A stretch of DNA of 41,024 bases, from assembly GCA_025965125.1 (NCBI GenBank), contig JAOPXM010000013.1:1-41024 (forward strand), written 5' to 3'. Under the pieces are notes generated by a model, which was not told where the DNA came from, did not search any database, and saw only the letters and a program-made list of their open reading frames with translations. Position 1 is the first letter of the stretch, and every line of letters starts with the position of its first letter. A program made the position numbers and the translations under genes. Shown piece after piece: positions 1 to 41,024 of this stretch. Source of the stretch: Nocardioides sp. Its GTDB lineage: Bacteria; Actinomycetota; Actinomycetes; Propionibacteriales; Nocardioidaceae.

Positions 1-2
1 CG

Positions 3-98
3 CGCGTCGGCGCGGACTTCGTGGAGGTCCTGGTGGCCACCGATCGACAGCTACTGGTGCCCTTCGGCGCGATCGCCGCGGTCCAGAGCCACGACTGA
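3..98 (+). CDS. 3' end of a conserved actinobacterial hypothetical gene (partial)
   Basis: An open frame runs in from the left edge and stops at TGA 96-98, giving 31 residues that start RVGADFVEVLVATDR and end in LVPFGAIAAVQSHD. The pattern resembles the C-terminal beta-rich end of short actinobacterial hypothetical proteins that end in a 'GADFV...LVPFxAI' segment. That family match is from memory and uncertain. The gene converges on tatB across a repeat-filled 118-bp gap. The N-terminus is outside the window. Confidence 0.5.
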   Translation, partial: RVGADFVEVLVATDRQLLVPFGAIAAVQSHD

Positions 99-102
99 TC
101 CG

Positions 103-215
103 CCGACCTGTCAGAAATGGCCCTCAGAAACCTGCCGACCTGTCACTTCTGGCCCCGAGAGCGGGCCAAAACTGACGAGTCGATGGCCCTACAGGGGCCA
201 AAAGTGACAGGTCGA
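103..215. repeat. Four-copy intergenic repeat, two direct and two inverted units
   Basis: The gap between two convergent genes is filled by four copies of a unit of about 21 bp with consensus GACCTGTCASTTYTGGCCC. Two read forward (103-123, 135-156) and two read reversed (163-183, 194-215). Adjacent inverted units can fold: TGGCCC (184-189) pairs with GGGCCA (195-200) round a 5-nt loop, and GGCCC near 151-155 pairs with GGGCC at 163-167. The position between two stop codons suggests a bidirectional terminator or a mobile mini-repeat. No transposase is nearby. Confidence 0.8.
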
Positions 216-216
216 C

Positions 217-555
217 TTAGGTCGCGTCGGCGTCGTACGGCGGGACCTCGCCGTCGTCGAGGGGTCGCAGGCCGCGTCGGCGCGCGGGGGTGGCCTCGGC
301 GCGGTCGGCCTCCTGCATCGCCTCGGTGATGTGCTTGCGCACGATGGTGCGGGGGTCGAGGTCGCGAAGCTCGAGGTCGGCATAGTCGGGGCCGAGCTCG
401 TTGCGCAGCTCGTCGCGGGCCGCGTTGGCGAAGGTGCGGGCCTTGCGCACCATCTGGCCGGCCTGGCGCGCGAGTTCGGGCAGCTTGTCGGGACCGAACA
501 CCAGCACGGCCACGAACGCGATCACCGCGAACTCTGGCAGGCCGACTCCGAACAC
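217..555 (-). CDS. tatB: Sec-independent protein translocase subunit TatB
   Basis: A 112-residue membrane protein of the twin-arginine export system. With TatC it forms the receptor for folded proteins carrying RR signal peptides. The N-terminus is typical: a short transmembrane helix (about residues 4-20, containing LPEF), the hinge FGPDKLPELAR, then a long amphipathic, charged helix and a disordered acidic/basic tail. The tail is somewhat shorter than in many actinobacterial TatB proteins. The start is GTG at 555, only 3 nt after the mrp stop codon, so the two genes are almost certainly co-transcribed and translationally coupled. TatA or TatE is excluded mainly by the length and by the LPEF and Mrp context. 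Confidence 0.9.
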   Translation of the reverse strand: MFGVGLPEFAVIAFVAVLVFGPDKLPELARQAGQMVRKARTFANAARDELRNELGPDYADLELRDLDPRTIVRKHITEAMQEADRAEATPARRRGLRPLDDGEVPPYDADAT

Positions 556-558
556 GTA

Positions 559-1737
559 CTAGAACCTACTGGCAGGGGTGAGACCCAGCTGCAGGCCGGC
601 CAGCCCGCGGCCTCGGCCACAGAGCGTGTCCGCGATCCCCGAGAGCACGACGGCGGCCGGAGCCGTGGGGTCCGCGTCGACGATCGGCTTCCCGACGTCG
701 CCGCCCTCACGCAACGAGACGTCCAGCGGCACGCGGCCCAGGACGGGAACGTCGTAGCCGAACCGCTGCGAGAGGGTGGCCGCGACCCGGTCGCCACCGC
801 CGCTACCGAAGATCTCGAGCTTGTGCTCGGGGCTCCCCGAGTCGGCGCAGTGTGGACAGACCAGGAAGCTCATGTTCTCGACGACCCCCACGACGCGCTG
901 GTGCATCATCGAGGCCATCGTGCCGGCGCGTTCGGCCACCTCGGCCGCGGCCTCCTGCGGCGTGGTCACCACCACGACCTCGGCGCCGGGCAGATGCTGG
1001 CCGAGGGAGATGGCGACGTCGCCGGTGCCGGGCGGAAGGTCGAGGAGCAGCACGTCGAGGTCGCCCCAGTAGACGTCCGCGAGCATCTGCACGAGGGCCC
1101 GGTCCAGCATCGGCCCCCGCCAGGCGACGACCTGCTCGCGGCTGGGCTTCAGCATCCCGATCGAGATGACCGAGACCCCGCTCGACGTGGGCACGGGCAT
1201 GATCAGGTCCTCGACCTGGGTCGGACGGGAGTCGGCGATGCCGAGCATGGCTGGGACCGAGTGACCGTAGATGTCGGCGTCGACGATGCCCACCTTGAGC
1301 CCCTGCTTGGCCATCGCCAGCGCGAGGTTGACGGTCACCGACGACTTGCCCACACCACCCTTGCCGCTGGCGATCGCGAAGACCTTGGTGAGCGAGCCCG
1401 GCTGCGCGAACGGGATCTCGCGCGCCGCCTGGCCACCGCGCAGCGTCGCCTGCAGGCCCGAGCGCTGGTCGGCGCTCATGACCCCGAGCTCGAGCTCGAC
1501 ACCGGTGACCCCGGGCACCTGACGGACGGCGGCGTTCACGTCGCGGGTGATCGTGTCCTTCAGGGGGCAGCCGGCCACGGTCAGCAGGACGGTCAGGCGC
1601 ACCACACCGGCGTCGTCGATCCCGACGGAGTCCACCATGCCGAGGTCGGTGATCGGACGCTTGATCTCGGGGTCGTTGACGGTCGCGAGGGCGGCCCAGA
1701 TTTCGGGGTGGACCTGCTCGAGAGTGGGGGTGCTCAT
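559..1737 (-). CDS. mrp: Mrp/NBP35 (ApbC) family Fe-S carrier P-loop ATPase
   Basis: A cytosolic 392-residue protein that carries and transfers iron-sulfur clusters to apo-proteins. Residues 1 to about 95 form a MIP18/DUF59-type domain with a conserved Cys (AGCPLK, near 57). The deviant Walker A motif GKGGVGKS lies at 125-132, DADIYGHSVP near 153-162, and the Walker B-like LLDLPPGTGD near 231-240. The cluster-binding CPHC is at 294-297. The length is normal. An in-frame GTG 10 codons upstream also exists. I chose ATG 1737 because MSTPTLEQV is the usual start and a -10 hexamer (TACCCT, 1746-1751) ends 8 nt before it, pointing to a leaderless mRNA. It sits upstream of tatB, as in many actinobacteria. 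Confidence 0.92.
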   Translation of the reverse strand: MSTPTLEQVHPEIWAALATVNDPEIKRPITDLGMVDSVGIDDAGVVRLTVLLTVAGCPLKDTITRDVNAAVRQVPGVTGVELELGVMSADQRSGLQATLRGGQAAREIPFAQPGSLTKVFAIASGKGGVGKSSVTVNLALAMAKQGLKVGIVDADIYGHSVPAMLGIADSRPTQVEDLIMPVPTSSGVSVISIGMLKPSREQVVAWRGPMLDRALVQMLADVYWGDLDVLLLDLPPGTGDVAISLGQHLPGAEVVVVTTPQEAAAEVAERAGTMASMMHQRVVGVVENMSFLVCPHCADSGSPEHKLEIFGSGGGDRVAATLSQRFGYDVPVLGRVPLDVSLREGGDVGKPIVDADPTAPAAVVLSGIADTLCGRGRGLAGLQLGLTPASRF

Positions 1738-1745
1738 GATGCTCA

Positions 1746-1751
1746 AGGGTA
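1746..1751 (-). promoter_or_regulatory. -10 box TACCCT of a leaderless mrp-tatB promoter
   Basis: Read leftward, TACCCT is followed by 8 nt and then the mrp ATG, with no Shine-Dalgarno sequence between. In actinobacteria a TANNNT box this close to the start marks a leaderless transcript. I see no clear -35 box. Confidence 0.5.
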
Positions 1752-1797
1752 GTTGGTCGTTGCACACCGACAGCCGCCGGTGGGCGTGACGTACCGC

Positions 1798-2316
1798 TCA
1801 GGCGAGCCGGGGGTCCTCGTCGTCGCCGCGAGCCCGCTCGTCGAGATCGCTGAGCAGCGAGCGGAGCTCCGAGCGCATGAAGTCGCGGGTGGCCACCTCG
1901 CCGACCGCCATCCGCAGCGAGGCCACCTCACGGGCGAGGAACTCCATGTCCGCGTGGGCGCGCGCGTTGGCCTGCCGGTCCTGCTCGGCGACCACCTTGT
2001 CGCGGGTCTCCTGCCGGTTCTGGGCGAGCAGGATCAGGGGAGCGGCGTACGACGCCTGCAGGCTGAGGATCAGCGTGAGGAAGATGAACGGGTAGTCATC
2101 CCAGCGCGCGTTGGTGGGCGCGGCGACGTTCCAGACCACCCAGACCGCCACGAACATGGTCATGTAGGTCAGGAACCGGGCGGTGCCCATGAACCGCGCG
2201 AACTCCTCGGCGAAGACCCCGAGGGCGTCGGCCTTGAACGCGGGCCGGCGCACGATCGTGCGGCGCGTCTCCTTGGGGGTGTCCAGGCGGGAGCGGGGGC
2301 TCCGGGTCTCAGGCAC
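1798..2316 (-). CDS. DUF1003 family membrane protein
   Basis: A 172-residue protein with a charged N-terminus, two transmembrane helices (about 48-65 and 76-98) and a hydrophilic, probably coiled-coil C-terminus (102-160). The family signature is clear: VWVVWN in the first helix, then PFIFLTLILSLQASYAAPLILLAQNRQ. Function is unknown. It starts with GTG at 2316 and overlaps the end of the MgtE_N/CBS gene by 8 bp, so the two are translationally coupled. Together with the magnesium-type domain of its partner this hints at a shared membrane or ion role, which is inference only. A gap of 60 bp separates it from mrp. Confidence 0.88.
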   Translation of the reverse strand: MPETRSPRSRLDTPKETRRTIVRRPAFKADALGVFAEEFARFMGTARFLTYMTMFVAVWVVWNVAAPTNARWDDYPFIFLTLILSLQASYAAPLILLAQNRQETRDKVVAEQDRQANARAHADMEFLAREVASLRMAVGEVATRDFMRSELRSLLSDLDERARGDDEDPRLA

Positions 2317-3583
2317 GGCGCACCCCCTGTCGGCGGTCGGTCGAGCGGATCGCCTGGTCGCGCCAGTTCTCGGGGAGCATGTGGTCGAGGAGGTCGTCGA
2401 CGCTCACCGCGCCGACGAGGTGCCCGTTGTCGTCGACCACCGGCGCCGCCACGAGGTTGTACGTCGCCAGGTGGGCCGCCACCTGGTCGATCGTGGCCTC
2501 CGGACGCAGCGGGTCCATGGAGTCGTCGAGCACTCCCGCGACCAGCGTCGACGGCGGCTCGCGCAGCAGTCGCTGGATGTGGGCCACTCCGAGGAACCTG
2601 CCCGTAGGCGTCTCGAGCGGTGGCCGGCAGACGTAGACGAGCGCGGCCAGCGCGGGCGTGAGCTCCGGGTTGCGCACCTGGGCCAGGGCGTCGGCGATCG
2701 TGGCGTCCGGCCCCAGGATCACCGGCTCGGGTGTCATCATCGCGCCCGCGGTGTTCTCGACGTACGACATCAGCCGGCGCACGTCCTCGGCCTCCTCGGG
2801 CTCCATCAGCCGGAGGAGTGCCTCGGCCGTCTCCGCCGGAAGGTCGGCGATCAGGTCGGCGGCGTCGTCCGGTGACATCTCCTCGAGGACGTCGGCGGCG
2901 CGCTCGTTGTCGAGCGCCTCGAGGATCTCGACCTGGTCCTCCTCGGGCAGCTCCTCGAGCACGTCGGCAAGTCGTTCGTCGTCGAGGGCGGCGATGACGG
3001 CCGTGCGTCGCTCCGGGGGGAGGTCGTGGATCATGCTCGCCGCGTCGGCGACCCGCATCTCGTTGAGTGCCGCGATCAGGTGCGTCGCACCCTGGGTCTC
3101 GTCTCGCTGGGTGAGCCCCTCGACATCTCGCCACTCGACGACGTGGGTCTGGCCGCGCCGACGCAACGCCTTGGCCGGCTCCTGCACCGCGACCCGGCTC
3201 AGCACCCAGTCGCGGTTCCGGGCCTGCTCCATGCCCACGTCGTAGACCGTCGCGGTGATGCCGGCGCTCGGGATCGTCACGGTCCGGTCGAGCAGCTGGC
3301 CGATCACGAGGGTCTCGGTCGAGCGCTGCTCGAAACGGCGCATGTTCAGCAGCCCCGTCGTGTACACCTGACCGCTGTCGATGTTCGTCACGCGGGTCAT
3401 CGGGACGAAGATCCGGCGACGACCGAAGACCTCGGCCACCATGCCGAGCACGCGGGGCTGGCTGACCTCGGACCGGATCGCCACCACGAGGTCTCGCACC
3501 TTGCCGACCTGGTCGCCTTGGGGGTCGAAGATCGGCAGCCCGACGAGACGGGCCGCGTAGACGCGCGAGGGGGCGGTGCTCAC
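2309..3583 (-). CDS. Soluble MgtE N-domain/CBS protein with PRC-barrel-like N-terminus
   Basis: 424 residues with no transmembrane segment. About 10-150 look like PRC-barrel-type beta domains (LVGLPIFDPQGDQVGKVRDLVV). About 170-275 form an MgtE N superhelical domain with repeats of the type ERLADVLEELPEEDQVEILE. About 283-405 are two CBS motifs (MMTPEPV...; ...DDNGHLVGAVSVDDLLDHML). In MgtE Mg2+ channels these domains sense Mg2+ and gate a C-terminal membrane pore, which is missing here. The protein is thus a stand-alone sensor-like form, as in mycobacterial Rv1232c (from memory). The start GTG 3583 is preferred over an upstream ATG at 3634 because TAGCGT ends 8 nt before it. It is divergent from the sulfotransferase gene. 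Confidence 0.82.
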   Translation of the reverse strand: MSTAPSRVYAARLVGLPIFDPQGDQVGKVRDLVVAIRSEVSQPRVLGMVAEVFGRRRIFVPMTRVTNIDSGQVYTTGLLNMRRFEQRSTETLVIGQLLDRTVTIPSAGITATVYDVGMEQARNRDWVLSRVAVQEPAKALRRRGQTHVVEWRDVEGLTQRDETQGATHLIAALNEMRVADAASMIHDLPPERRTAVIAALDDERLADVLEELPEEDQVEILEALDNERAADVLEEMSPDDAADLIADLPAETAEALLRLMEPEEAEDVRRLMSYVENTAGAMMTPEPVILGPDATIADALAQVRNPELTPALAALVYVCRPPLETPTGRFLGVAHIQRLLREPPSTLVAGVLDDSMDPLRPEATIDQVAAHLATYNLVAAPVVDDNGHLVGAVSVDDLLDHMLPENWRDQAIRSTDRRQGVRRA

Positions 3584-3591
3584 GTCCCGCA

Positions 3592-3597
3592 ACGCTA
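3592..3597 (-). promoter_or_regulatory. -10 box TAGCGT, leaderless promoter of the MgtE_N/CBS operon
   Basis: Read leftward, TAGCGT is followed by 8 nt and then GTG 3583. No ribosome binding site is present. This supports the shorter start for the gene. Confidence 0.5.
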
Positions 3598-3643
3598 CCG
3601 GTCGGCGCGCCCTCTGCAGCGTCACTGGCACCATGTCTGCACC

Positions 3644-4825
3644 ATGACTTCAGCGTCGCCCCCTCCGTCGCCAGCGGCCTCCGGACCTCCGCAGCGCGTT
3701 GTTCTGCACGTCGGGCTGCCCAAGACGGGCACGACGTACCTCCAGGAGATGCTCGCTGCCAACCGCGACCGGCTGCGAGACGGCGGCGTGCTCTACCCGT
3801 TCCTCGGACCCGGCGCGATGTTCCGCGGTGCGGTCGAGGTGCGGGGCAGCCATGACAAGTTCGGGCTCCGCCCGCAGGACGTCGCGGGCACCTGGCAGCG
3901 GCTCTGTGACCGGGCGCGCGAGTTTCCCGGCACCACGGTGATCAGCCACGAGGTGCTCGCAGGCGCCACGATCGAGCAGATCGCGGCCGCCATCGCTCCC
4001 CTGGCGGGGCTCGAGGTGCACGTGGTCGTCACCGCCCGTGACCTCGGCCGCCAGGCCACCGCCCACTGGCAGGAGGAGGTGAAGCTGGGGGAGACCCGGT
4101 CCTTCGCAGCCTTCGAGCGGGACCAGTTCCGCGCCGACACCGGTCCGGACGCCGGCCCCGACGCCGGCGGGGTGCGGCCGCACTTCTGGCACGCCCAGGA
4201 CTTCGCGGACGCCCTCCGGCGCTGGTCGACGGCGGTCCCTCCCGGTCGGGTGCACCTTGTCGCCGGCCCGCCAGCGGGCGCACCCCCCGACGAGCTCTGG
4301 CGTCGGTTCGCAGAGGCGGCCGGCTTCGACGCCGACCTCGTCGACGCGGGTGCCGCTGCACGAGCCAACCCGTCGCTGGGCGTCGCGGAGATCAGGCTGC
4401 TGCGCGAGGTCAACCTCGCCCTCGACGGTCGCCTCGACCCCCGGGCCTACCAGCGCATCGTCAAGCGCGAGTACGCCGAGAGTGTGCTCGCCGGCCGGTC
4501 GTCGACGCGTCCGCGGACGCCGGCCTCGCTGCGCGAGGTGTTCGAGCCCGTCACCCGGGCCTGGTTGTCGCAGATCGAGTCCCGTGGTCACCCCGTCCAC
4601 GGCGATCCGGCCGACCTGCTCCCGGTGCTGGGTGGCGACGACGAGGTGCACCCGGACGACGTACCGGCCGCTGAGCGGGTCGACGACGACCCGGCAGCAC
4701 TGGCGGACGGGTTCGTGGCCGCCGCCGGTCCCGGGGAGTCGGCCGGGGGAACGAGCATCTTGGGCAGGCTGCGGAGCAGAGCCCGCAGGCTCCGCCCCGG
4801 TGATCCTTCTCATGATGAGATGTGA
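3644..4825 (+). CDS. Sulfotransferase-like P-loop protein
   Basis: 393 residues. A P-loop with the 5'-phosphosulfate-binding signature PKTGTT lies at 26-31, after the strand VVLHVGL. A second conserved region HVVVTARDLGRQ (about 126-137) corresponds to the 3'-phosphate loop of PAPS-dependent sulfotransferases, although the usual Ser is replaced. The substrate cannot be told. The C-terminal 100 residues are acidic and low-complexity. The open frame continues 206 codons upstream across the divergent gene; ATG 3644 is the first start clear of it, and MTSASPPPSP then leads straight into the P-loop strand. No sulfation pathway genes are nearby. Confidence 0.78.
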   Translation: MTSASPPPSPAASGPPQRVVLHVGLPKTGTTYLQEMLAANRDRLRDGGVLYPFLGPGAMFRGAVEVRGSHDKFGLRPQDVAGTWQRLCDRAREFPGTTVISHEVLAGATIEQIAAAIAPLAGLEVHVVVTARDLGRQATAHWQEEVKLGETRSFAAFERDQFRADTGPDAGPDAGGVRPHFWHAQDFADALRRWSTAVPPGRVHLVAGPPAGAPPDELWRRFAEAAGFDADLVDAGAAARANPSLGVAEIRLLREVNLALDGRLDPRAYQRIVKREYAESVLAGRSSTRPRTPASLREVFEPVTRAWLSQIESRGHPVHGDPADLLPVLGGDDEVHPDDVPAAERVDDDPAALADGFVAAAGPGESAGGTSILGRLRSRARRLRPGDPSHDEM

Positions 4826-4853
4826 GCGGCCCGCCTCTAGAGTGAGAAGGATC
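4802..4853. promoter_or_regulatory. Inverted repeat between the sulfotransferase and acyl-CoA dehydrogenase genes
   Basis: GATCCTTCTCA (4802-4812) is matched exactly by TGAGAAGGATC (4843-4853), an 11/11 inverted repeat with a 30-nt spacer. Inside the left half there is a 13-nt odd palindrome, TCTCATGATGAGA (4808-4820), overlapping the sulfotransferase stop codon. It lies 22 nt before the dehydrogenase ATG. It could be an operator for a dimeric repressor or a weak terminator stem. No regulator gene is adjacent. Confidence 0.45.
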
Positions 4854-4875
4854 CGATCTACTGGAAGGTAACTTG

Positions 4876-6072
4876 ATGGGCCGCCTCTGCGAGACCGACG
4901 GACTGACCGACGACCAGACCGAGATCCTGAAGGCGGTCCGGACGTTCGTCGAGGACAAGATCCTCCCGGTCGCCACCGAGCTCGAGCACGCCGACGAGTA
5001 CCCCACCGAGATCGTCGAGGGGCTCAAGGAGATGGGCCTGTTCGGCCTGATGATCCCCGAGGAGTACGGCGGGCTCGGAGAGTCGCTGCTGACCTACGCC
5101 CTGGTCGTGGAGGAGATCGCCCGCGGCTGGATGAGCGTGTCCGGGGTGATCAACACCCACTTCCTCGTGGCCTACATGCTCCTCCAGCACGGCACCGAGG
5201 AGCAGAAGAAGAAGTACCTGCCGAAGATGGCCGAGGGCGAGATCCGCGGCGCCTTCTCGATGTCGGAACCCGGTTGCGGCTCCGACGTGGCCGCCATCAA
5301 GACCAAGGCGGTCAAGGGCGAGGACGGCAACTACACGATCGACGGCCAGAAGATGTGGCTGACCAACGGTGGCTCGGCCAACCTGGTCGCCGTGCTCGTC
5401 AAGACCGACGAGGGTGCGGAGTCGACGTACAAGAACATGACGACGTTCCTGGTGGAGAAGGAGGTCGGGTTCGGCGAGACCGCTCCGGGCGTCACCATCC
5501 CCGGCAAGATCGACAAGATGGGCTACAAGGGCGTCGACACCACGGAGATGATCTTCGAGGGCGCCCAGATCTCGGCCGAGCAGATCCTGGGTGGTGAGCC
5601 GGGCAAGGGCTTCTACCAGATGATGGACGGTGTCGAGGTCGGGCGCGTGAACGTCGCGGCCCGTGGCTGCGGCGTCGCCAACAGGGCGTTCGAGCTCGGC
5701 GTCGCCTACGCCCAGCAGCGCGAGACGTTCGGCAAGAAGATCGCCGAGCACCAGGCCGTGATGTTCCGGCTCGCAGAGATGGCCACCAAGGTCGAGGCCG
5801 CCCACCAGATGATGGTCCGCGCGGCCCGCAAGAAGGACTCCGGCAAGCGCAACGACCTCGAGGCAGGCATGGCCAAGTACCTCGCCTCGGAGTACTGCTC
5901 CCAGGTCGTCGAGGACTCGTTCCGGATCCACGGCGGTTACGGATTCTCCAAGGAGTACGAGATCGAGCGGCTCTACCGTGAGGCGCCGATGCTGCTCATC
6001 GGTGAGGGCACCGCTGACATCCAGAAGATGATCATCGGTCGCCGCGTGATCGAGGACTACAAGCTGCGCTGA
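4876..6072 (+). CDS. Acyl-CoA dehydrogenase
   Basis: A 398-residue FAD enzyme of normal family length that oxidises acyl-CoA to 2-enoyl-CoA and passes electrons to ETF. Seen in order: the N-terminal helical domain, AFSMSEPGCGSD and KMWLTNG in the beta domain (FAD and substrate contacts), QQRETFGKKIAEHQAV in the C-terminal helical domain, and the catalytic Glu at 377 in IGEGTADIQ, the medium/short-chain position. A Shine-Dalgarno GGAAGG (4863-4868) lies 7 nt before ATG 4876; the TTG immediately upstream is less well spaced. Chain-length specificity cannot be read. A MaoC-type hydratase 2 kb downstream could act on its product. Confidence 0.93.
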   Translation: MGRLCETDGLTDDQTEILKAVRTFVEDKILPVATELEHADEYPTEIVEGLKEMGLFGLMIPEEYGGLGESLLTYALVVEEIARGWMSVSGVINTHFLVAYMLLQHGTEEQKKKYLPKMAEGEIRGAFSMSEPGCGSDVAAIKTKAVKGEDGNYTIDGQKMWLTNGGSANLVAVLVKTDEGAESTYKNMTTFLVEKEVGFGETAPGVTIPGKIDKMGYKGVDTTEMIFEGAQISAEQILGGEPGKGFYQMMDGVEVGRVNVAARGCGVANRAFELGVAYAQQRETFGKKIAEHQAVMFRLAEMATKVEAAHQMMVRAARKKDSGKRNDLEAGMAKYLASEYCSQVVEDSFRIHGGYGFSKEYEIERLYREAPMLLIGEGTADIQKMIIGRRVIEDYKLR

Positions 6073-6094
6073 CCCGGGCTGGCGTCCGGCGCAT

Positions 6095-6137
6095 CCCTTC
6101 GTGCCCCCTTCGTGCCCCTTCGTGCCCCCTTCGTGCC
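6095..6137 (+). repeat. Four tandem copies of CCCTTCGTGCC
   Basis: Units start at 6095, 6106, 6116 and 6127, with a period of 10-11 bp, directly after the acyl-CoA dehydrogenase gene. The last unit leads into an inverted repeat, GTGCCA (6133-6138) and TGGCAC (6150-6155), round an 11-nt loop. This may serve as a terminator-like structure or a slippage-prone array. It is too short and has no spacers, so it is not CRISPR. Confidence 0.8.
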
Positions 6138-6175
6138 ACTGTGGCGAAATGGCACGGATGTGACCAAAGTGACGC

Positions 6176-6181
6176 TAGAGT
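6176..6181 (+). promoter_or_regulatory. Possible -10 box TAGAGT before the EEP-family gene
   Basis: TAGAGT lies 51 nt before ATG 6233, which would give a short leader carrying the Shine-Dalgarno sequence. No convincing -35 box is seen. Confidence 0.35.
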
Positions 6182-6232
6182 CGCCCCGTCGACGGTGTGG
6201 TCCGGCACGCCGTCCGCTGCCCCGGAGGACCC

Positions 6233-7240: not shown

Positions 7241-7270
7241 CCAGCCAGGACCGCACGCCGTCGGACCCGG

Positions 7271-7771
7271 TCAACCGGTGACGGCCACGTCGGACACCTG
7301 GTAGCCGACCTCCTCGTCCATGGCGTTCTTGTCCTGGTCGACGTAGACCGAGCTCGGGTAGTCCTGCCCATCGGGCCACGTCACGTCGACCGAGGCCGCT
7401 CCGGTGTCGTTGGCGGCGTCGATGACGTCGTTGATGCTCAGCCAGCGGTACTTCTCGACCGGATCGCCCTGCTTCACGCCGCGGCCACCCTCGGCGTACA
7501 CCGCGGCCGTGACGTCGCCGTGCTCGACCGTGACCCGGATCGGGACGCCGGCGTCGGCACAGAAGCAGCTGACGGAAAGGGAGTAGGAGTAGTCGGTCGG
7601 CTCGAAGGCGGGATAGCTCCCGACCGTGGGCTCCGCCGTGGGAGTGGGAGAGGTGCTCGAGGACCCTCCGGGGTCGGTGGCCGTGCCGGGATCGGAGTCG
7701 TTGCCGCACGCGGCGAGCGCGAGACACGCGACGGTGGCGACCAGCACGGCTGAAGGGGAGAGTCGCGACAT
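7271..7771 (-). CDS. DUF6174-type lipoprotein
   Basis: 166 residues with a lipoprotein signal peptide ending in the lipobox LAAC, lipidated Cys 22, then a Ser/Thr/Pro-rich linker (about 30-50). The mature domain carries SVSCFC (Cys 69, Cys 71), which are likely to form a disulfide or redox pair, followed by PIRVTVEHGDV and a C-terminal MDEEVGYQVSDV. This pattern matches the actinobacterial DUF6174 family, whose function is unknown. It is convergent with the EEP gene 30 bp away. Expected location: outer face of the cytoplasmic membrane. Confidence 0.8.
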   Translation of the reverse strand: MSRLSPSAVLVATVACLALAACGNDSDPGTATDPGGSSSTSPTPTAEPTVGSYPAFEPTDYSYSLSVSCFCADAGVPIRVTVEHGDVTAAVYAEGGRGVKQGDPVEKYRWLSINDVIDAANDTGAASVDVTWPDGQDYPSSVYVDQDKNAMDEEVGYQVSDVAVTG

Positions 7772-7879
7772 GGTGTTCTGACGTTCGACGCGCCCCGGAG
7801 GATCCGGATATGAGTCGACGCGGTTGGATGGTGGTGTCAGGGTGGGAGGACTGCCCGGCTAGACCTCGCGGAGGAACGC

Positions 7880-11920: not shown

Positions 11921-11934
11921 GCGAGACTCGACCC

Positions 11935-13224: not shown

Positions 13225-14103
13225 GTGCGCATCGACCTCCACACCCACTCGCGGGCCAGCGACGGCACGCAGTCGCCGGAGGAGCTGGTGCGAGCCGCGG
13301 TCACAGTGGGACTCGACGTGCTCGCGATCACGGACCACGACACGTCCGCGGGGTGGGCCGAGGCCGAGCGCACCGCACGGGAGCTCGGTCTCGAGCTGGT
13401 CCGGGGCATGGAGATCAGCACGAAGCACCACGGCAGGGGAGTTCACCTGCTCGCGTACCTGCCGGACCCGACGTACCCCCCGCTGCTCACCGAGCTGGCC
13501 CGGGTCCTCGACGGACGCCGCTCGCGGGTGCCGGTGATGCTCGACCGGCTGCGGGGTATGGACATCGAGATCACCGACGAGGACGTACGCCGTGCATCCG
13601 GCGGCACCGCCGCCACCGGCAGGCCGCACGTCGCCGATGCGCTGGTCGCACTGGGGCGGGTGACGGACCGGTCGGAGGCGTTCGACCGCTACCTGGGCGC
13701 CGGGCGTCCGGCGCACGTCGACCGCTATGCCGCTCCGCTTGTCGACACGATCCGGCTCGTGCGCGAGGCCGGCGGGGTCAGCGTGATCGCCCACCCCTGG
13801 GGGCGCAGCGGCCGGCACTGGCCGGGAGCGGCCGAGCTGGCGGCGCTCAAGGACGAGGGACTGTCGGGCGTGGAGGTGGACCACCAGGACCACGACACCG
13901 ACTCGCGGCGCCTGCTGCGCTCGATCGCGCGGGACCTGGACCTCGTGGTGACCGGGTCCAGCGACCACCACGGCACCGGAAAGATCGACCACGACCTGGG
14001 GGTGAACACGACGTCGGCCGCTGACTACGAGCGGCTCCTCGAGCTCGCCGCGGCGGCGTCCGCACGCTCGGGCCGACAGACCCCGCAGGTGGTCAGACCG
14101 TGA
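13225..14103 (+). CDS. PHP domain metal-dependent phosphoesterase
   Basis: 292 residues. The trinuclear metal site of PHP phosphoesterases is visible: His 6 and His 8 (DLHTHS), Asp 13, Asp 37-His 38 (ITDHDT), Glu 63 (GMEIS), His 74 and later IAHPWG and SSDHHG. The arrangement resembles YciV/RNase AM (TrpH) proteins that act on 3',5'-nucleotide bisphosphates or trim RNA 5' ends; the exact substrate is inference. The start GTG 13225 is supported by the adjacent TAGGCT box. Its last 4 bases overlap the marC start (GTGA), so the genes are coupled. Confidence 0.88.
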   Translation: MRIDLHTHSRASDGTQSPEELVRAAVTVGLDVLAITDHDTSAGWAEAERTARELGLELVRGMEISTKHHGRGVHLLAYLPDPTYPPLLTELARVLDGRRSRVPVMLDRLRGMDIEITDEDVRRASGGTAATGRPHVADALVALGRVTDRSEAFDRYLGAGRPAHVDRYAAPLVDTIRLVREAGGVSVIAHPWGRSGRHWPGAAELAALKDEGLSGVEVDHQDHDTDSRRLLRSIARDLDLVVTGSSDHHGTGKIDHDLGVNTTSAADYERLLELAAAASARSGRQTPQVVRP

Positions 14104-18795: not shown

Positions 18796-19509
18796 ATGAC
18801 TGCATCGACGGACGGCGCCCTCGAGGACGACGTCCCGGTGGCCTTCCAGGACCCCGGATATCGCGAGGCAGTGGTCGACCTCCTGGGGGTGATCGCGTAC
18901 GGCGAGATCTCGGCGTTCGAGCGCCTCGCCGAGGACGCGAAGCTGGCTCCGACCCTCGAGGACAAGGTGGCGATCGCGGCCATGGCGAGTGCCGAGTTCG
19001 GCAAGGTTGCGCTTCTCCACGAGCGGCTCACGGACCTCGGTGCGGACCCGTTCGCAGCCATGGCACCGTTTCGCGGCGCGATCGACCTCTTCCACGAGCA
19101 CACCCGGCCGGCCGACTGGTACGAAGGCCTGGTCAAGGCCTACGTCGGTGACGGCCTGGCCAACGACTTCTACCGCGAGATCGCGGCGTACCTCGACACG
19201 GCGACACGCGACCTGATCGTCTCGTCCCTCGAGGACACCGGACACTCGGCGTTCGCGATCGACCGGGTCCGGGCGGCGATCGTGGCCGACCACCGGCTCG
19301 GCGGCCGCCTGGCTCTGTGGGGGCGTCGGCTGATGGGGGAGGCGCTGACCCAGGGTCAGCGGGTGGCCGCCGAGCGGGACGCGTTGTCCGCACTGCTCGC
19401 CGGCGGGGTGGACCGTCCCGGCCTCGACCTGGCCGCCATCGGCCGGATGTTCACGCGGCTCACGGATCGACACGCTGAGCGGATGGCGGAGCTCGGCCTC
19501 GCCAGCTGA
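18796..19509 (+). CDS. Ferritin-like fold protein (MiaE-like/Rv3210c-like)
   Basis: 237 residues, all helical in character. AYGEISAFERLAEDAK (about 34-49) and AAMASAEFGKVALLHERL (61-78) carry carboxylates (Glu 37, Glu 67) and His 75 where a diiron site would be, followed by DWYEGLVKAYVGDGLANDFYREI, a hallmark of this actinobacterial family. Metal binding and any hydroxylase activity are inference. Adjacency to a DEAD-box helicase is common in actinobacteria and hints at an RNA-related role. ATG 18796 is supported by the adjacent TAGGGT box. Confidence 0.82.
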   Translation: MTASTDGALEDDVPVAFQDPGYREAVVDLLGVIAYGEISAFERLAEDAKLAPTLEDKVAIAAMASAEFGKVALLHERLTDLGADPFAAMAPFRGAIDLFHEHTRPADWYEGLVKAYVGDGLANDFYREIAAYLDTATRDLIVSSLEDTGHSAFAIDRVRAAIVADHRLGGRLALWGRRLMGEALTQGQRVAAERDALSALLAGGVDRPGLDLAAIGRMFTRLTDRHAERMAELGLAS

Positions 19510-19653: not shown

Positions 19654-20514
19654 ATGGATGTCGTGGAAGCGCTCGTGCGGCTGGGCGGGATTGCAAGCGC
19701 GGCCGACCTGACCGAGCTGACCTCGCCAGCGCGCGTTCGGTCGGCGGCCGACACCGGCCTCATCCACAGGCTCAAACGAGGGACGTACTGCCTGCCGGGC
19801 GTCGAGGAGGCCCTCCGCGTGGCGATCCGGCTCGGTGGCATGGCGTCTCATCTGTCAGCGGCGCAGCTGCACGGCTGGGAGGTGGCTCATCCACCGACGT
19901 GTCCGTGGATCGTGGTGCCCCGCAACCGGGAGGTGTCGGACCGGCTGGGCAGCTACGTGTTCTGGGCCGACCTCGCCGGTGAGGCCGGGCACGTCACCTC
20001 ACCGCTGCGGACGGTGATCGACTGCGGTCGAAGGCTGCAGTTCACTCCGGCGCTGACGGTGGCCGACTCCGCCCTCCGGCACCGGGCGATCACCCGGGAC
20101 CAGCTACGGGCGGGAGCCGTCGACGTCCGGGGCAAGGGTGCGGGGCCCGTGCGCGAGATAGCCGTACTCGCTGATGGCCGTGCGGCCAACGCGTTCGAGT
20201 CCGCACTGCGAGCGATCGCGATCCGGTCCGGCCTGGATGTGGTGCCCCAGCAGGAGGTCTCCATCGCAGGTGAGGTGGTGCATCCTGATCTCGTCGACGT
20301 AGGCCGGCGGCTCGTTCTCGAAGCCGATTCCTGGGAGTTCCACGCGACCCGCGAGGCCCACGACCGGGACTGCTGGCGCTACGACGAGCTGGTGCTCGCG
20401 GGTTGGACGGTTCTTCGCTTCACCTGGCGGCAGGTCATGCGAGAGCCCGGATGGGTACGAGCCTGTCTCGAACGGCGCGCCGGTGGGGCAAACGGGGGCG
20501 GATTCACTGGTTAA
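19654..20514 (+). CDS. AbiEi-like winged-helix/DUF559 (Vsr-like) protein
   Basis: 286 residues. The N-terminus (1-90) resembles the AbiEi-type antitoxin winged helix: GGIASAADLTELTS, then a basic RLKRGTYCLPG. The C-terminus (about 180-270) is DUF559-like, a PD-(D/E)xK nuclease-type fold related to Vsr: HPDLVD (Asp 212), LEADSWEFH (Glu 223, Asp 225), then a late strand VLRFTWRQV. Such proteins are common in several copies in actinobacteria, usually without an AbiEii toxin, as here. The last 9 or so residues (AGGANGGGFTG) are encoded by the axis repeat, and TAA 20512-20514 straddles the axis. The natural C-terminus is therefore uncertain. Confidence 0.8.
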   Translation: MDVVEALVRLGGIASAADLTELTSPARVRSAADTGLIHRLKRGTYCLPGVEEALRVAIRLGGMASHLSAAQLHGWEVAHPPTCPWIVVPRNREVSDRLGSYVFWADLAGEAGHVTSPLRTVIDCGRRLQFTPALTVADSALRHRAITRDQLRAGAVDVRGKGAGPVREIAVLADGRAANAFESALRAIAIRSGLDVVPQQEVSIAGEVVHPDLVDVGRRLVLEADSWEFHATREAHDRDCWRYDELVLAGWTVLRFTWRQVMREPGWVRACLERRAGGANGGGFTG

Positions 20515-20540
20515 CCAGTGAATCCGCCCCCGTTTGCCCC
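20485..20540. repeat. Palindromic intergenic element at the axis
   Basis: Each half reads GGGGCAAACG, GGGGCGGATT, CACTGGTT and then meets its complement with no loop. A diverged relative of the same element (GGGGCAAAACG ... GGCGGATC ... CGTTTGCCCCC) lies upstream of the neighbouring gene at 19530-19587, so this is probably a natural hairpin-forming repeat of this genome. How much of the symmetry was present in the real chromosome cannot be told from the window, because everything outside it is symmetric too. The stop codons of the two convergent DUF559 genes lie inside it and overlap by 4 bp. Confidence 0.8.
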
Positions 20541-33145: not shown

Positions 33146-33253
33146 GCGTTCCTCCGCGAGGTCTAGCCGGGCAGTCCTCCCACCCTGACACCACCATCCA
33201 ACCGCGTCGACTCATATCCGGATCCTCCGGGGCGCGTCGAACGTCAGAACACC

Positions 33254-33754: not shown

Positions 33755-33784
33755 CCGGGTCCGACGGCGTGCGGTCCTGGCTGG

Positions 33785-34792: not shown

Positions 34793-34843
34793 GGGTCCTC
34801 CGGGGCAGCGGACGGCGTGCCGGACCACACCGTCGACGGGGCG

Positions 34844-34849
34844 ACTCTA
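34844..34849 (-). promoter_or_regulatory. Possible -10 box TAGAGT of the EEP gene, mirror copy
   Basis: Lies 51 nt before the ATG at 34792, read leftward. Confidence 0.35.
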
Positions 34850-34887
34850 GCGTCACTTTGGTCACATCCGTGCCATTTCGCCACAGT

Positions 34888-34930
34888 GGCACGAAGGGGG
34901 CACGAAGGGGCACGAAGGGGGCACGAAGGG
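34888..34930 (-). repeat. Four tandem copies of CCCTTCGTGCC, mirror copy
   Basis: Same array as 6095-6137, read on the minus strand, with the GTGCCA/TGGCAC inverted repeat at 34870-34892. Confidence 0.8.
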
Positions 34931-34952
34931 ATGCGCCGGACGCCAGCCCGGG

Positions 34953-36149
34953 TCAGCGCAGCTTGTAGTCCTCGATCACGCGGCGACCGATGATCATCTT
35001 CTGGATGTCAGCGGTGCCCTCACCGATGAGCAGCATCGGCGCCTCACGGTAGAGCCGCTCGATCTCGTACTCCTTGGAGAATCCGTAACCGCCGTGGATC
35101 CGGAACGAGTCCTCGACGACCTGGGAGCAGTACTCCGAGGCGAGGTACTTGGCCATGCCTGCCTCGAGGTCGTTGCGCTTGCCGGAGTCCTTCTTGCGGG
35201 CCGCGCGGACCATCATCTGGTGGGCGGCCTCGACCTTGGTGGCCATCTCTGCGAGCCGGAACATCACGGCCTGGTGCTCGGCGATCTTCTTGCCGAACGT
35301 CTCGCGCTGCTGGGCGTAGGCGACGCCGAGCTCGAACGCCCTGTTGGCGACGCCGCAGCCACGGGCCGCGACGTTCACGCGCCCGACCTCGACACCGTCC
35401 ATCATCTGGTAGAAGCCCTTGCCCGGCTCACCACCCAGGATCTGCTCGGCCGAGATCTGGGCGCCCTCGAAGATCATCTCCGTGGTGTCGACGCCCTTGT
35501 AGCCCATCTTGTCGATCTTGCCGGGGATGGTGACGCCCGGAGCGGTCTCGCCGAACCCGACCTCCTTCTCCACCAGGAACGTCGTCATGTTCTTGTACGT
35601 CGACTCCGCACCCTCGTCGGTCTTGACGAGCACGGCGACCAGGTTGGCCGAGCCACCGTTGGTCAGCCACATCTTCTGGCCGTCGATCGTGTAGTTGCCG
35701 TCCTCGCCCTTGACCGCCTTGGTCTTGATGGCGGCCACGTCGGAGCCGCAACCGGGTTCCGACATCGAGAAGGCGCCGCGGATCTCGCCCTCGGCCATCT
35801 TCGGCAGGTACTTCTTCTTCTGCTCCTCGGTGCCGTGCTGGAGGAGCATGTAGGCCACGAGGAAGTGGGTGTTGATCACCCCGGACACGCTCATCCAGCC
35901 GCGGGCGATCTCCTCCACGACCAGGGCGTAGGTCAGCAGCGACTCTCCGAGCCCGCCGTACTCCTCGGGGATCATCAGGCCGAACAGGCCCATCTCCTTG
36001 AGCCCCTCGACGATCTCGGTGGGGTACTCGTCGGCGTGCTCGAGCTCGGTGGCGACCGGGAGGATCTTGTCCTCGACGAACGTCCGGACCGCCTTCAGGA
36101 TCTCGGTCTGGTCGTCGGTCAGTCCGTCGGTCTCGCAGAGGCGGCCCAT
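34953..36149 (-). CDS. Acyl-CoA dehydrogenase, mirror copy
   Basis: Identical to 4876-6072: AFSMSEPGCGSD, QQRETFGKKI and catalytic Glu 377 in IGEGTADIQ. GGAAGG lies 7 nt before the ATG. Confidence 0.93.
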   Translation of the reverse strand: MGRLCETDGLTDDQTEILKAVRTFVEDKILPVATELEHADEYPTEIVEGLKEMGLFGLMIPEEYGGLGESLLTYALVVEEIARGWMSVSGVINTHFLVAYMLLQHGTEEQKKKYLPKMAEGEIRGAFSMSEPGCGSDVAAIKTKAVKGEDGNYTIDGQKMWLTNGGSANLVAVLVKTDEGAESTYKNMTTFLVEKEVGFGETAPGVTIPGKIDKMGYKGVDTTEMIFEGAQISAEQILGGEPGKGFYQMMDGVEVGRVNVAARGCGVANRAFELGVAYAQQRETFGKKIAEHQAVMFRLAEMATKVEAAHQMMVRAARKKDSGKRNDLEAGMAKYLASEYCSQVVEDSFRIHGGYGFSKEYEIERLYREAPMLLIGEGTADIQKMIIGRRVIEDYKLR

Positions 36150-36171
36150 CAAGTTACCTTCCAGTAGATCG

Positions 36172-36223
36172 GATCCTTCTCACTCTAGAGGCGGGCCGCT
36201 CACATCTCATCATGAGAAGGATC
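36172..36223. promoter_or_regulatory. Inverted repeat upstream of the acyl-CoA dehydrogenase gene, mirror copy
   Basis: GATCCTTCTCA and TGAGAAGGATC arms (11/11) with the internal 13-nt palindrome, as at 4802-4853. Confidence 0.45.
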
Positions 36224-37381
36224 ACCGGGGCGGAGCCTGCGGGCTCTGCTCCGCAGCCTGCCCAAGATGCTCGTTCCCCCGGCCGACTCCCCGGGACCGG
36301 CGGCGGCCACGAACCCGTCCGCCAGTGCTGCCGGGTCGTCGTCGACCCGCTCAGCGGCCGGTACGTCGTCCGGGTGCACCTCGTCGTCGCCACCCAGCAC
36401 CGGGAGCAGGTCGGCCGGATCGCCGTGGACGGGGTGACCACGGGACTCGATCTGCGACAACCAGGCCCGGGTGACGGGCTCGAACACCTCGCGCAGCGAG
36501 GCCGGCGTCCGCGGACGCGTCGACGACCGGCCGGCGAGCACACTCTCGGCGTACTCGCGCTTGACGATGCGCTGGTAGGCCCGGGGGTCGAGGCGACCGT
36601 CGAGGGCGAGGTTGACCTCGCGCAGCAGCCTGATCTCCGCGACGCCCAGCGACGGGTTGGCTCGTGCAGCGGCACCCGCGTCGACGAGGTCGGCGTCGAA
36701 GCCGGCCGCCTCTGCGAACCGACGCCAGAGCTCGTCGGGGGGTGCGCCCGCTGGCGGGCCGGCGACAAGGTGCACCCGACCGGGAGGGACCGCCGTCGAC
36801 CAGCGCCGGAGGGCGTCCGCGAAGTCCTGGGCGTGCCAGAAGTGCGGCCGCACCCCGCCGGCGTCGGGGCCGGCGTCCGGACCGGTGTCGGCGCGGAACT
36901 GGTCCCGCTCGAAGGCTGCGAAGGACCGGGTCTCCCCCAGCTTCACCTCCTCCTGCCAGTGGGCGGTGGCCTGGCGGCCGAGGTCACGGGCGGTGACGAC
37001 CACGTGCACCTCGAGCCCCGCCAGGGGAGCGATGGCGGCCGCGATCTGCTCGATCGTGGCGCCTGCGAGCACCTCGTGGCTGATCACCGTGGTGCCGGGA
37101 AACTCGCGCGCCCGGTCACAGAGCCGCTGCCAGGTGCCCGCGACGTCCTGCGGGCGGAGCCCGAACTTGTCATGGCTGCCCCGCACCTCGACCGCACCGC
37201 GGAACATCGCGCCGGGTCCGAGGAACGGGTAGAGCACGCCGCCGTCTCGCAGCCGGTCGCGGTTGGCAGCGAGCATCTCCTGGAGGTACGTCGTGCCCGT
37301 CTTGGGCAGCCCGACGTGCAGAACAACGCGCTGCGGAGGTCCGGAGGCCGCTGGCGACGGAGGGGGCGACGCTGAAGTCAT
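36200..37381 (-). CDS. Sulfotransferase-like P-loop protein, mirror copy
   Basis: Identical to 3644-4825: PKTGTT P-loop at 26-31 and VVVTARDLGRQ region. It is divergent from the mirrored MgtE_N/CBS gene. Confidence 0.78.
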   Translation of the reverse strand: MTSASPPPSPAASGPPQRVVLHVGLPKTGTTYLQEMLAANRDRLRDGGVLYPFLGPGAMFRGAVEVRGSHDKFGLRPQDVAGTWQRLCDRAREFPGTTVISHEVLAGATIEQIAAAIAPLAGLEVHVVVTARDLGRQATAHWQEEVKLGETRSFAAFERDQFRADTGPDAGPDAGGVRPHFWHAQDFADALRRWSTAVPPGRVHLVAGPPAGAPPDELWRRFAEAAGFDADLVDAGAAARANPSLGVAEIRLLREVNLALDGRLDPRAYQRIVKREYAESVLAGRSSTRPRTPASLREVFEPVTRAWLSQIESRGHPVHGDPADLLPVLGGDDEVHPDDVPAAERVDDDPAALADGFVAAAGPGESAGGTSILGRLRSRARRLRPGDPSHDEM

Positions 37382-37427
37382 GGTGCAGACATGGTGCCAG
37401 TGACGCTGCAGAGGGCGCGCCGACCGG

Positions 37428-37433
37428 TAGCGT
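37428..37433 (+). promoter_or_regulatory. -10 box TAGCGT of the MgtE_N/CBS operon, mirror copy
   Basis: Ends 8 nt before GTG 37442, with no ribosome binding site. Confidence 0.5.
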
Positions 37434-37441
37434 TGCGGGAC

Positions 37442-38716
37442 GTGAGCACCGCCCCCTCGCGCGTCTACGCGGCCCGTCTCGTCGGGCTGCCGATCTTCGA
37501 CCCCCAAGGCGACCAGGTCGGCAAGGTGCGAGACCTCGTGGTGGCGATCCGGTCCGAGGTCAGCCAGCCCCGCGTGCTCGGCATGGTGGCCGAGGTCTTC
37601 GGTCGTCGCCGGATCTTCGTCCCGATGACCCGCGTGACGAACATCGACAGCGGTCAGGTGTACACGACGGGGCTGCTGAACATGCGCCGTTTCGAGCAGC
37701 GCTCGACCGAGACCCTCGTGATCGGCCAGCTGCTCGACCGGACCGTGACGATCCCGAGCGCCGGCATCACCGCGACGGTCTACGACGTGGGCATGGAGCA
37801 GGCCCGGAACCGCGACTGGGTGCTGAGCCGGGTCGCGGTGCAGGAGCCGGCCAAGGCGTTGCGTCGGCGCGGCCAGACCCACGTCGTCGAGTGGCGAGAT
37901 GTCGAGGGGCTCACCCAGCGAGACGAGACCCAGGGTGCGACGCACCTGATCGCGGCACTCAACGAGATGCGGGTCGCCGACGCGGCGAGCATGATCCACG
38001 ACCTCCCCCCGGAGCGACGCACGGCCGTCATCGCCGCCCTCGACGACGAACGACTTGCCGACGTGCTCGAGGAGCTGCCCGAGGAGGACCAGGTCGAGAT
38101 CCTCGAGGCGCTCGACAACGAGCGCGCCGCCGACGTCCTCGAGGAGATGTCACCGGACGACGCCGCCGACCTGATCGCCGACCTTCCGGCGGAGACGGCC
38201 GAGGCACTCCTCCGGCTGATGGAGCCCGAGGAGGCCGAGGACGTGCGCCGGCTGATGTCGTACGTCGAGAACACCGCGGGCGCGATGATGACACCCGAGC
38301 CGGTGATCCTGGGGCCGGACGCCACGATCGCCGACGCCCTGGCCCAGGTGCGCAACCCGGAGCTCACGCCCGCGCTGGCCGCGCTCGTCTACGTCTGCCG
38401 GCCACCGCTCGAGACGCCTACGGGCAGGTTCCTCGGAGTGGCCCACATCCAGCGACTGCTGCGCGAGCCGCCGTCGACGCTGGTCGCGGGAGTGCTCGAC
38501 GACTCCATGGACCCGCTGCGTCCGGAGGCCACGATCGACCAGGTGGCGGCCCACCTGGCGACGTACAACCTCGTGGCGGCGCCGGTGGTCGACGACAACG
38601 GGCACCTCGTCGGCGCGGTGAGCGTCGACGACCTCCTCGACCACATGCTCCCCGAGAACTGGCGCGACCAGGCGATCCGCTCGACCGACCGCCGACAGGG
38701 GGTGCGCCGTGCCTGA
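37442..38716 (+). CDS. Soluble MgtE N-domain/CBS protein, mirror copy
   Basis: Identical to 2309-3583: PRC-barrel-like N-terminus, MgtE N superhelix and paired CBS motifs, no membrane pore. It overlaps the DUF1003 gene by 8 bp. Confidence 0.82.
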   Translation: MSTAPSRVYAARLVGLPIFDPQGDQVGKVRDLVVAIRSEVSQPRVLGMVAEVFGRRRIFVPMTRVTNIDSGQVYTTGLLNMRRFEQRSTETLVIGQLLDRTVTIPSAGITATVYDVGMEQARNRDWVLSRVAVQEPAKALRRRGQTHVVEWRDVEGLTQRDETQGATHLIAALNEMRVADAASMIHDLPPERRTAVIAALDDERLADVLEELPEEDQVEILEALDNERAADVLEEMSPDDAADLIADLPAETAEALLRLMEPEEAEDVRRLMSYVENTAGAMMTPEPVILGPDATIADALAQVRNPELTPALAALVYVCRPPLETPTGRFLGVAHIQRLLREPPSTLVAGVLDDSMDPLRPEATIDQVAAHLATYNLVAAPVVDDNGHLVGAVSVDDLLDHMLPENWRDQAIRSTDRRQGVRRA

Positions 38717-39227
38717 GACCCGGAGCCCCCGCTCCCGCCTGGACACCCCCAAGGAGACGCGCCGCACGATCGTGCGCCGGCCCGCGTTCAAGGCCGACGC
38801 CCTCGGGGTCTTCGCCGAGGAGTTCGCGCGGTTCATGGGCACCGCCCGGTTCCTGACCTACATGACCATGTTCGTGGCGGTCTGGGTGGTCTGGAACGTC
38901 GCCGCGCCCACCAACGCGCGCTGGGATGACTACCCGTTCATCTTCCTCACGCTGATCCTCAGCCTGCAGGCGTCGTACGCCGCTCCCCTGATCCTGCTCG
39001 CCCAGAACCGGCAGGAGACCCGCGACAAGGTGGTCGCCGAGCAGGACCGGCAGGCCAACGCGCGCGCCCACGCGGACATGGAGTTCCTCGCCCGTGAGGT
39101 GGCCTCGCTGCGGATGGCGGTCGGCGAGGTGGCCACCCGCGACTTCATGCGCTCGGAGCTCCGCTCGCTGCTCAGCGATCTCGACGAGCGGGCTCGCGGC
39201 GACGACGAGGACCCCCGGCTCGCCTGA
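38709..39227 (+). CDS. DUF1003 family membrane protein, mirror copy
   Basis: Identical to 1798-2316: two membrane helices at about 48-65 and 76-98, GTG start. Confidence 0.88.
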   Translation: MPETRSPRSRLDTPKETRRTIVRRPAFKADALGVFAEEFARFMGTARFLTYMTMFVAVWVVWNVAAPTNARWDDYPFIFLTLILSLQASYAAPLILLAQNRQETRDKVVAEQDRQANARAHADMEFLAREVASLRMAVGEVATRDFMRSELRSLLSDLDERARGDDEDPRLA

Positions 39228-39273
39228 GCGGTACGTCACGCCCACCGGCGGCTGTCGGTGTGCAACGACCAAC

Positions 39274-39279
39274 TACCCT
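39274..39279 (+). promoter_or_regulatory. -10 box TACCCT of mrp-tatB, mirror copy
   Basis: Ends 8 nt before ATG 39288. It is inside the 60-bp gap after the DUF1003 gene. Confidence 0.5.
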
Positions 39280-39287
39280 TGAGCATC

Positions 39288-40466
39288 ATGAGCACCCCCA
39301 CTCTCGAGCAGGTCCACCCCGAAATCTGGGCCGCCCTCGCGACCGTCAACGACCCCGAGATCAAGCGTCCGATCACCGACCTCGGCATGGTGGACTCCGT
39401 CGGGATCGACGACGCCGGTGTGGTGCGCCTGACCGTCCTGCTGACCGTGGCCGGCTGCCCCCTGAAGGACACGATCACCCGCGACGTGAACGCCGCCGTC
39501 CGTCAGGTGCCCGGGGTCACCGGTGTCGAGCTCGAGCTCGGGGTCATGAGCGCCGACCAGCGCTCGGGCCTGCAGGCGACGCTGCGCGGTGGCCAGGCGG
39601 CGCGCGAGATCCCGTTCGCGCAGCCGGGCTCGCTCACCAAGGTCTTCGCGATCGCCAGCGGCAAGGGTGGTGTGGGCAAGTCGTCGGTGACCGTCAACCT
39701 CGCGCTGGCGATGGCCAAGCAGGGGCTCAAGGTGGGCATCGTCGACGCCGACATCTACGGTCACTCGGTCCCAGCCATGCTCGGCATCGCCGACTCCCGT
39801 CCGACCCAGGTCGAGGACCTGATCATGCCCGTGCCCACGTCGAGCGGGGTCTCGGTCATCTCGATCGGGATGCTGAAGCCCAGCCGCGAGCAGGTCGTCG
39901 CCTGGCGGGGGCCGATGCTGGACCGGGCCCTCGTGCAGATGCTCGCGGACGTCTACTGGGGCGACCTCGACGTGCTGCTCCTCGACCTTCCGCCCGGCAC
40001 CGGCGACGTCGCCATCTCCCTCGGCCAGCATCTGCCCGGCGCCGAGGTCGTGGTGGTGACCACGCCGCAGGAGGCCGCGGCCGAGGTGGCCGAACGCGCC
40101 GGCACGATGGCCTCGATGATGCACCAGCGCGTCGTGGGGGTCGTCGAGAACATGAGCTTCCTGGTCTGTCCACACTGCGCCGACTCGGGGAGCCCCGAGC
40201 ACAAGCTCGAGATCTTCGGTAGCGGCGGTGGCGACCGGGTCGCGGCCACCCTCTCGCAGCGGTTCGGCTACGACGTTCCCGTCCTGGGCCGCGTGCCGCT
40301 GGACGTCTCGTTGCGTGAGGGCGGCGACGTCGGGAAGCCGATCGTCGACGCGGACCCCACGGCTCCGGCCGCCGTCGTGCTCTCGGGGATCGCGGACACG
40401 CTCTGTGGCCGAGGCCGCGGGCTGGCCGGCCTGCAGCTGGGTCTCACCCCTGCCAGTAGGTTCTAG
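39288..40466 (+). CDS. mrp: Mrp/NBP35 (ApbC) Fe-S carrier ATPase, mirror copy
   Basis: Identical to 559-1737: DUF59 domain, GKGGVGKS at 125-132 and CPHC at 294-297. The tatB copy starts 3 nt after its stop. Confidence 0.92.
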   Translation: MSTPTLEQVHPEIWAALATVNDPEIKRPITDLGMVDSVGIDDAGVVRLTVLLTVAGCPLKDTITRDVNAAVRQVPGVTGVELELGVMSADQRSGLQATLRGGQAAREIPFAQPGSLTKVFAIASGKGGVGKSSVTVNLALAMAKQGLKVGIVDADIYGHSVPAMLGIADSRPTQVEDLIMPVPTSSGVSVISIGMLKPSREQVVAWRGPMLDRALVQMLADVYWGDLDVLLLDLPPGTGDVAISLGQHLPGAEVVVVTTPQEAAAEVAERAGTMASMMHQRVVGVVENMSFLVCPHCADSGSPEHKLEIFGSGGGDRVAATLSQRFGYDVPVLGRVPLDVSLREGGDVGKPIVDADPTAPAAVVLSGIADTLCGRGRGLAGLQLGLTPASRF

Positions 40467-40469
40467 TAC

Positions 40470-40808
40470 GTGTTCGGAGTCGGCCTGCCAGAGTTCGCGG
40501 TGATCGCGTTCGTGGCCGTGCTGGTGTTCGGTCCCGACAAGCTGCCCGAACTCGCGCGCCAGGCCGGCCAGATGGTGCGCAAGGCCCGCACCTTCGCCAA
40601 CGCGGCCCGCGACGAGCTGCGCAACGAGCTCGGCCCCGACTATGCCGACCTCGAGCTTCGCGACCTCGACCCCCGCACCATCGTGCGCAAGCACATCACC
40701 GAGGCGATGCAGGAGGCCGACCGCGCCGAGGCCACCCCCGCGCGCCGACGCGGCCTGCGACCCCTCGACGACGGCGAGGTCCCGCCGTACGACGCCGACG
40801 CGACCTAA
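40470..40808 (+). CDS. tatB: TatB translocase subunit, mirror copy
   Basis: Identical to 217-555: N-terminal membrane helix with LPEF, FGPDKLPELAR hinge and amphipathic helix, GTG start. Confidence 0.9.
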   Translation: MFGVGLPEFAVIAFVAVLVFGPDKLPELARQAGQMVRKARTFANAARDELRNELGPDYADLELRDLDPRTIVRKHITEAMQEADRAEATPARRRGLRPLDDGEVPPYDADAT

Positions 40809-40809
40809 G

Positions 40810-40922
40810 TCGACCTGTCACTTTTGGCCCCTGTAGGGCCATCGACTCGTCAGTTTTGGCCCGCTCTCGGGGCCAGAAGTGACAGGTCGGCAGGTTTCTG
40901 AGGGCCATTTCTGACAGGTCGG
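40810..40922. repeat. Four-copy intergenic repeat, mirror copy
   Basis: Same GACCTGTCASTTYTGGCCC-type units as 103-215, two in each orientation, between the tatB stop and the partial gene. Confidence 0.8.
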
Positions 40923-40926
40923 CGGA

Positions 40927-41022
40927 TCAGTCGTGGCTCTGGACCGCGGCGATCGCGCCGAAGGGCACCAGTAGCTGTCGATCGGTGGCCACCAGGACCT
41001 CCACGAAGTCCGCGCCGACGCG
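40927..41022 (-). CDS. 3' end of a conserved hypothetical gene (partial), mirror copy
   Basis: Identical to 3-98: 31 C-terminal residues ending LVPFGAIAAVQSHD, cut by the right edge of the window. Confidence 0.5.
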   Translation of the reverse strand, partial: RVGADFVEVLVATDRQLLVPFGAIAAVQSHD

Positions 41023-41024
41023 CG

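Follow-up and report, generated by a model that had tools for sequence, protein, structure and literature searches.

Palindromic contigs and strand-plus-complement products have been described in several systems. Some contigs in single-cell cyanobacterial assemblies carry a second half that is an exact mirror of the first, and they are very likely assembly artifacts (PMC12755884), while palindromic contigs of Mycobacterium bovis have been ascribed to a likely assembly error through which the gene annotation was doubled (PMC9455707). At the library level, genomic palindromes are reported to yield, during library preparation, reads in which a strand is joined to its complement (i.e., the PDSM model; PMC10908179). 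As far as the excerpted text of these reports describes the cases, the contig analyzed here (C188) resembles the first in the exact mirroring of one half in the other, the second in being a palindromic contig with doubled genes, and the third in having a native palindrome at the axis of a strand-plus-complement product. In contrast to C188, the excerpted text of the first two reports does not connect the axis with any native repeat; the chimeras of the third, again according to its excerpted text, arose in human libraries and produced false variant calls, whereas our case involves a whole contig. A palindromic contig of this sort is a known kind of artifact, not a real feature. We estimate a probability of about 95% that C188 is a fold-back artifact of short-read de Bruijn assembly with a final k of 127 rather than real biology.

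The window (i.e., the whole stretch of DNA that was analyzed; 41,024 bases) corresponds to the entire contig G000:C188:1-41024, one of the 257 contigs of the draft genome G000 (3,979,029 bases; 92.21% complete and 1.71% contaminated), and both of its ends are therefore contig ends. In a whole-window self-comparison, base x was the complement of base 41025-x at 41,024 of 41,024 positions, and the contig is thus its own reverse complement with 0 mismatches. The axis lies between positions 20512 and 20513, with no spacer. A chance origin of a palindrome of this extent is excluded. The initial annotation had described the whole 41-kb window as a perfect spacer-free palindrome with its axis at 20512/20513, and the full base-to-complement comparison bears out both the description and the coordinates. 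We take the left arm (positions 1 to 20512, forward strand; from a TatA/B-like to an AbiEi/DUF559-like gene) to be a real chromosomal segment and the right arm (positions 20513 to 41024, reverse strand), which is the exact reverse complement of the left, to be artifactual; the MiaE-like gene close to the axis, which six of six relatives carry once, supports the latter view.

Ten proteins from the open reading frame (ORF) list of the arm were scanned against Pfam. They comprise a TatA/B-like protein, a P-loop ATPase of the NUBPL/ParA family (presumably Mrp-like), an MgtE_N/CBS protein, an acyl-CoA dehydrogenase, a MaoC-like protein, MarC, an AAA_31 (ParA-type) ATPase, a DEAD-box helicase, a MiaE-like protein (PF13794; positions 18796 to 19509, forward strand), and an AbiEi/DUF559-like protein. 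Judged from these matches, the scanned genes are ordinary chromosomal ones. Toward the axis, the MiaE-like gene is the final one that the arm has in common with relatives. Between it and the axis lies the AbiEi/DUF559-like ORF (positions 19654 to 20514, forward strand), for which DUF559 scored above its cutoff and MTES_1575 and AbiEi_4 scored below theirs. Since the listed 3' end of this ORF is at the axis, the native C terminus is uncertain, and the 3' end may be partly mirror sequence. The gene is not at that place in the relative G004, although parts of its DNA have weaker matches elsewhere in G004 and in other relatives. A pattern scan of named genomes recovered one relative of its protein (54% identical), in a Nocardioides metagenome-assembled genome.

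The ends of the contig carry marks of the assembly procedure. The first 127 bases of C188 (positions 1 to 127, forward strand) are identical to the final 127 bases of contig C92 (positions 13450 to 13576 of 13576) and, by symmetry, recur as a mirror copy at positions 40898 to 41024 (reverse strand). Among 130 sampled contig ends, including those of C188, we counted exact overlaps of at least 25 bases and found three distinct joins (C92-C188, C192-C19, and C11-C196), each of exactly 127 bases. A de Bruijn assembler operating with k = 127 leaves adjoining contigs that share exactly 127 bases. The sampled overlaps therefore suggest that the contigs were made from short reads, most likely by a SPAdes-like de Bruijn program with a final k of 127. 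Near the contig end, positions 97 to 216 contain a second dispersed repeat, with many partly similar copies in the same genome (approximately 70 to 89% over most pieces).

The outer sequence of the palindrome leads to a single flank. Among the 257 contigs, the terminal 51 bases (up to 2 mismatches) were confined to C92 and the two termini of C188, and a search for a second flank with the first 400 bases as the query likewise pointed only to C92 and C188 itself among the 40 of 259 candidates that were scored. Two different outer flanks, which the initial annotation had named as an observation that would speak against an artifact, were thus looked for, and only C92 was found among the 257 contigs.

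The inner sequence was assessed by aligning the arm, C92, and another contig, C96, to stretches of four relatives from the same genus (G004, G010, G032, and G036), two of which consist of one or two contigs. All four exhibited the same chromosomal order, i.e., C92, the arm in one orientation, 1.2 to 1.7 kb of other sequence, and C96. Departures inside the arm were insertions of several kilobases and, in two of the relatives (G032 and G036), an out-of-order piece resembling the 6.4- to 7.2-kb part of the window (occurring twice in G032). Whole-genome searches of six relatives revealed a single MiaE-like gene and a single DUF3107 gene, adjoining each other, in every case. In G004, the intervening stretch contains the DUF3107 gene and a TetR gene, followed by a ThiF-rhodanese gene that also starts C96; the corresponding G004 stretch matches C96 from its base 1237 onward. 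For the first 1,236 bases of that stretch, only pieces of 29 to 110 bp matched G000 (40 of 522 candidates scored). The DUF3107 query, which matched all six relatives, returned no match in G000, and the TetR query returned 24 matches with identities of at most 52%, which we read as paralogues. Given the order in relatives and the failure to find the DUF3107/TetR stretch in G000, the true neighbor of the axis is missing, and the mirror copy occupies its position. The comparison with related genomes that the initial annotation had suggested therefore has a clear outcome, in that the arm leads into other unique sequence in all four aligned relatives.

These observations bear directly on the proposal that C188 represents a real, very recent inverted duplication (i.e., a head-to-head copy) in the chromosome. 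Such an event literally matches the sequence as assembled, and a very recent copy would be perfect. However, a duplication within the chromosome needs two outer flanks, and C92 alone among the 257 contigs shares the terminal sequence; moreover, C96, the expected inner neighbor, is assembled as a contig of its own. In bacteria, long perfect palindromes that lack a spacer are also unstable, which counts against this proposal. We consider it very unlikely; if real, C188 would mean that a bacterial chromosome carries a palindrome with arms of 20.5 kb and no spacer between them.

The axis coincides with a native element, an observation additional to those of the initial annotation. It is the exact center of CACTGGTTAACCAGTG, a 16-mer with 22 exact and 3 one-mismatch copies in G000. 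The surrounding 20-mer TTCACTGGTTAACCAGTGAA (positions 20503 to 20522), the core of this dispersed palindromic repeat, is centered exactly on 20512/20513 and was detected (up to 1 mismatch) at 24 sites in G000, 43 sites in G004, and none in the other 96 genomes of the genus that were searched (i.e., in 2 of 98 genomes). Sites in G000 include those on C13, C83, C84, C141, C143, and C244. With 21 further exact copies spread over 3.98 Mb, the probability that an axis would fall on a repeat center by coincidence is approximately 5 in a million. The 21 other exact 16-mer copies in G000 form perfect palindromes of only 18 to 28 bp, and the 22 exact copies examined in G004 form ones of 18 to 34 bp; neither set suggests that the native palindrome at the axis is longer. 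All 21 of the G000 copies are inside contigs, the nearest being 442 bases from a contig end. Across the two genomes, 11 distinct pairs of cores flank an imperfect inner hairpin (10 pairs spaced 62 bp apart and one spaced 84 bp apart), and the predicted single-strand RNA folds of these pairs (ten of 90 bases and one of 112 bases) range from -49.6 to -68.4 kcal/mol. We infer that such a hairpin-rich element would be a natural site for strand self-pairing and for a true drop in coverage.

Repetitive extragenic palindromic (REP) and palindromic interspersed repeats form a class of short dispersed palindromes that are often paired around an inner hairpin, and the repeat described here resembles them in these respects. 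It differs in its presence in only 2 of 98 genomes of the genus and in the absence of a match to a RAYT-type Y1_Tnp protein (PF01797) in the 92.21%-complete G000 draft, compared with 5 positives among 14 control genomes. The 16-base core was not found in the literature text searched, but the repeat may have been described earlier. It is a genuine feature, although a minor one.

The distribution of the repeat also informs two further readings. One is that the palindrome is real in at least some cells, with the lineage-specific repeat acting as a hot spot for palindrome-mediated inverted duplication and part of the population carrying the 20.5-kb arm as a head-to-head duplicate; we give this little credence. 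The other takes the contig to be the terminus of a linear replicon, namely, a covalently closed hairpin telomere of the protelomerase type that was read around its turn. A telomere of this kind would produce a palindrome that lacks a spacer and has a single flank, as seen for C92, but the axis motif is not confined to replicon ends (21 of its 22 exact copies are at other sites inside contigs), genes continue beyond the arm in all four relatives, and the scanned arm genes have the ordinary chromosomal character noted above. We therefore regard a telomeric origin as extremely improbable. Hardly credible, finally, is a long-read fold-back (from a missed adaptor or from both strands being read at once) that passed into the assembly: long-read fold-backs do make spacer-free palindromes without any axis motif, which counts for this route, but the 127-base overlaps point to short reads (although the assembly could conceivably be a hybrid one), and an axis on the repeat palindrome would be a coincidence.

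The interpretation of C188 as an assembly fold-back draws together the mirror identity of the whole contig, the 127-base joins, the single flank, the order in relatives, the missing neighbor, and the position of the axis on the repeat. The initial annotation had likewise considered a fold-back artifact most likely, and the flank, the synteny, the missing neighbor, and the repeat at the axis add support. Two of its proposed routes (i.e., an assembly path that doubles back along its own reverse strand and a library or amplification chimera) agree with our data, while the third, a long-read hairpin, fits poorly since the sampled overlaps are all exactly 127 bases. The true order in the genome would be C92, the 20.5-kb arm, the palindromic repeat, the DUF3107/TetR stretch, and C96. 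The native palindrome at this site is probably 18 to 28 bp long, as in the other copies, and, lying within a hairpin-rich element, it may have let the arm continue into its own reverse complement. In one possible route, a palindromic single-stranded end would have paired with another copy of itself and been extended, giving chimeric library molecules. Multi-k assemblers carry early low-k contigs into higher-k graphs, and in a second possible route an early low-k graph would have contained a path complementary to itself, which was then carried to k = 127.

Three considerations count against a fold-back. A contig assembled at k = 127 needs a supported palindromic word of 128 bases, for which a native palindrome of 18 to 28 bp alone is insufficient. 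The same repeat is unfolded and assembled straight through at all 43 other exact copies examined (all 21 others in G000 and 22 in G004). In addition, no further palindromic contig was found in a census of 74 stretches from 74 contigs, of which 73 were retained (the all-N C193 was dropped and the partly N C199 was kept). The most inverted 31-mers in the census were in C100 (18), C45 (18), and C195 (4); the stretches from C181, C95, C143, and C73 miss the contig middle, and a central axis was thus detectable in 69 of the 73. An apparent palindrome in C193 was rejected as due to masking. An off-centre stretch of C244, outside the census, contained no palindrome.

Gene and marker counts that derive from C188 are doubled in the public genome. 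The initial annotation had anticipated such a doubling in the event of an artifact. C188 also illustrates how an assembly by itself can suffice to diagnose a fold-back, through the k-mer overlap at the contig ends, the native palindrome at the axis, and the missing neighbor found by synteny.
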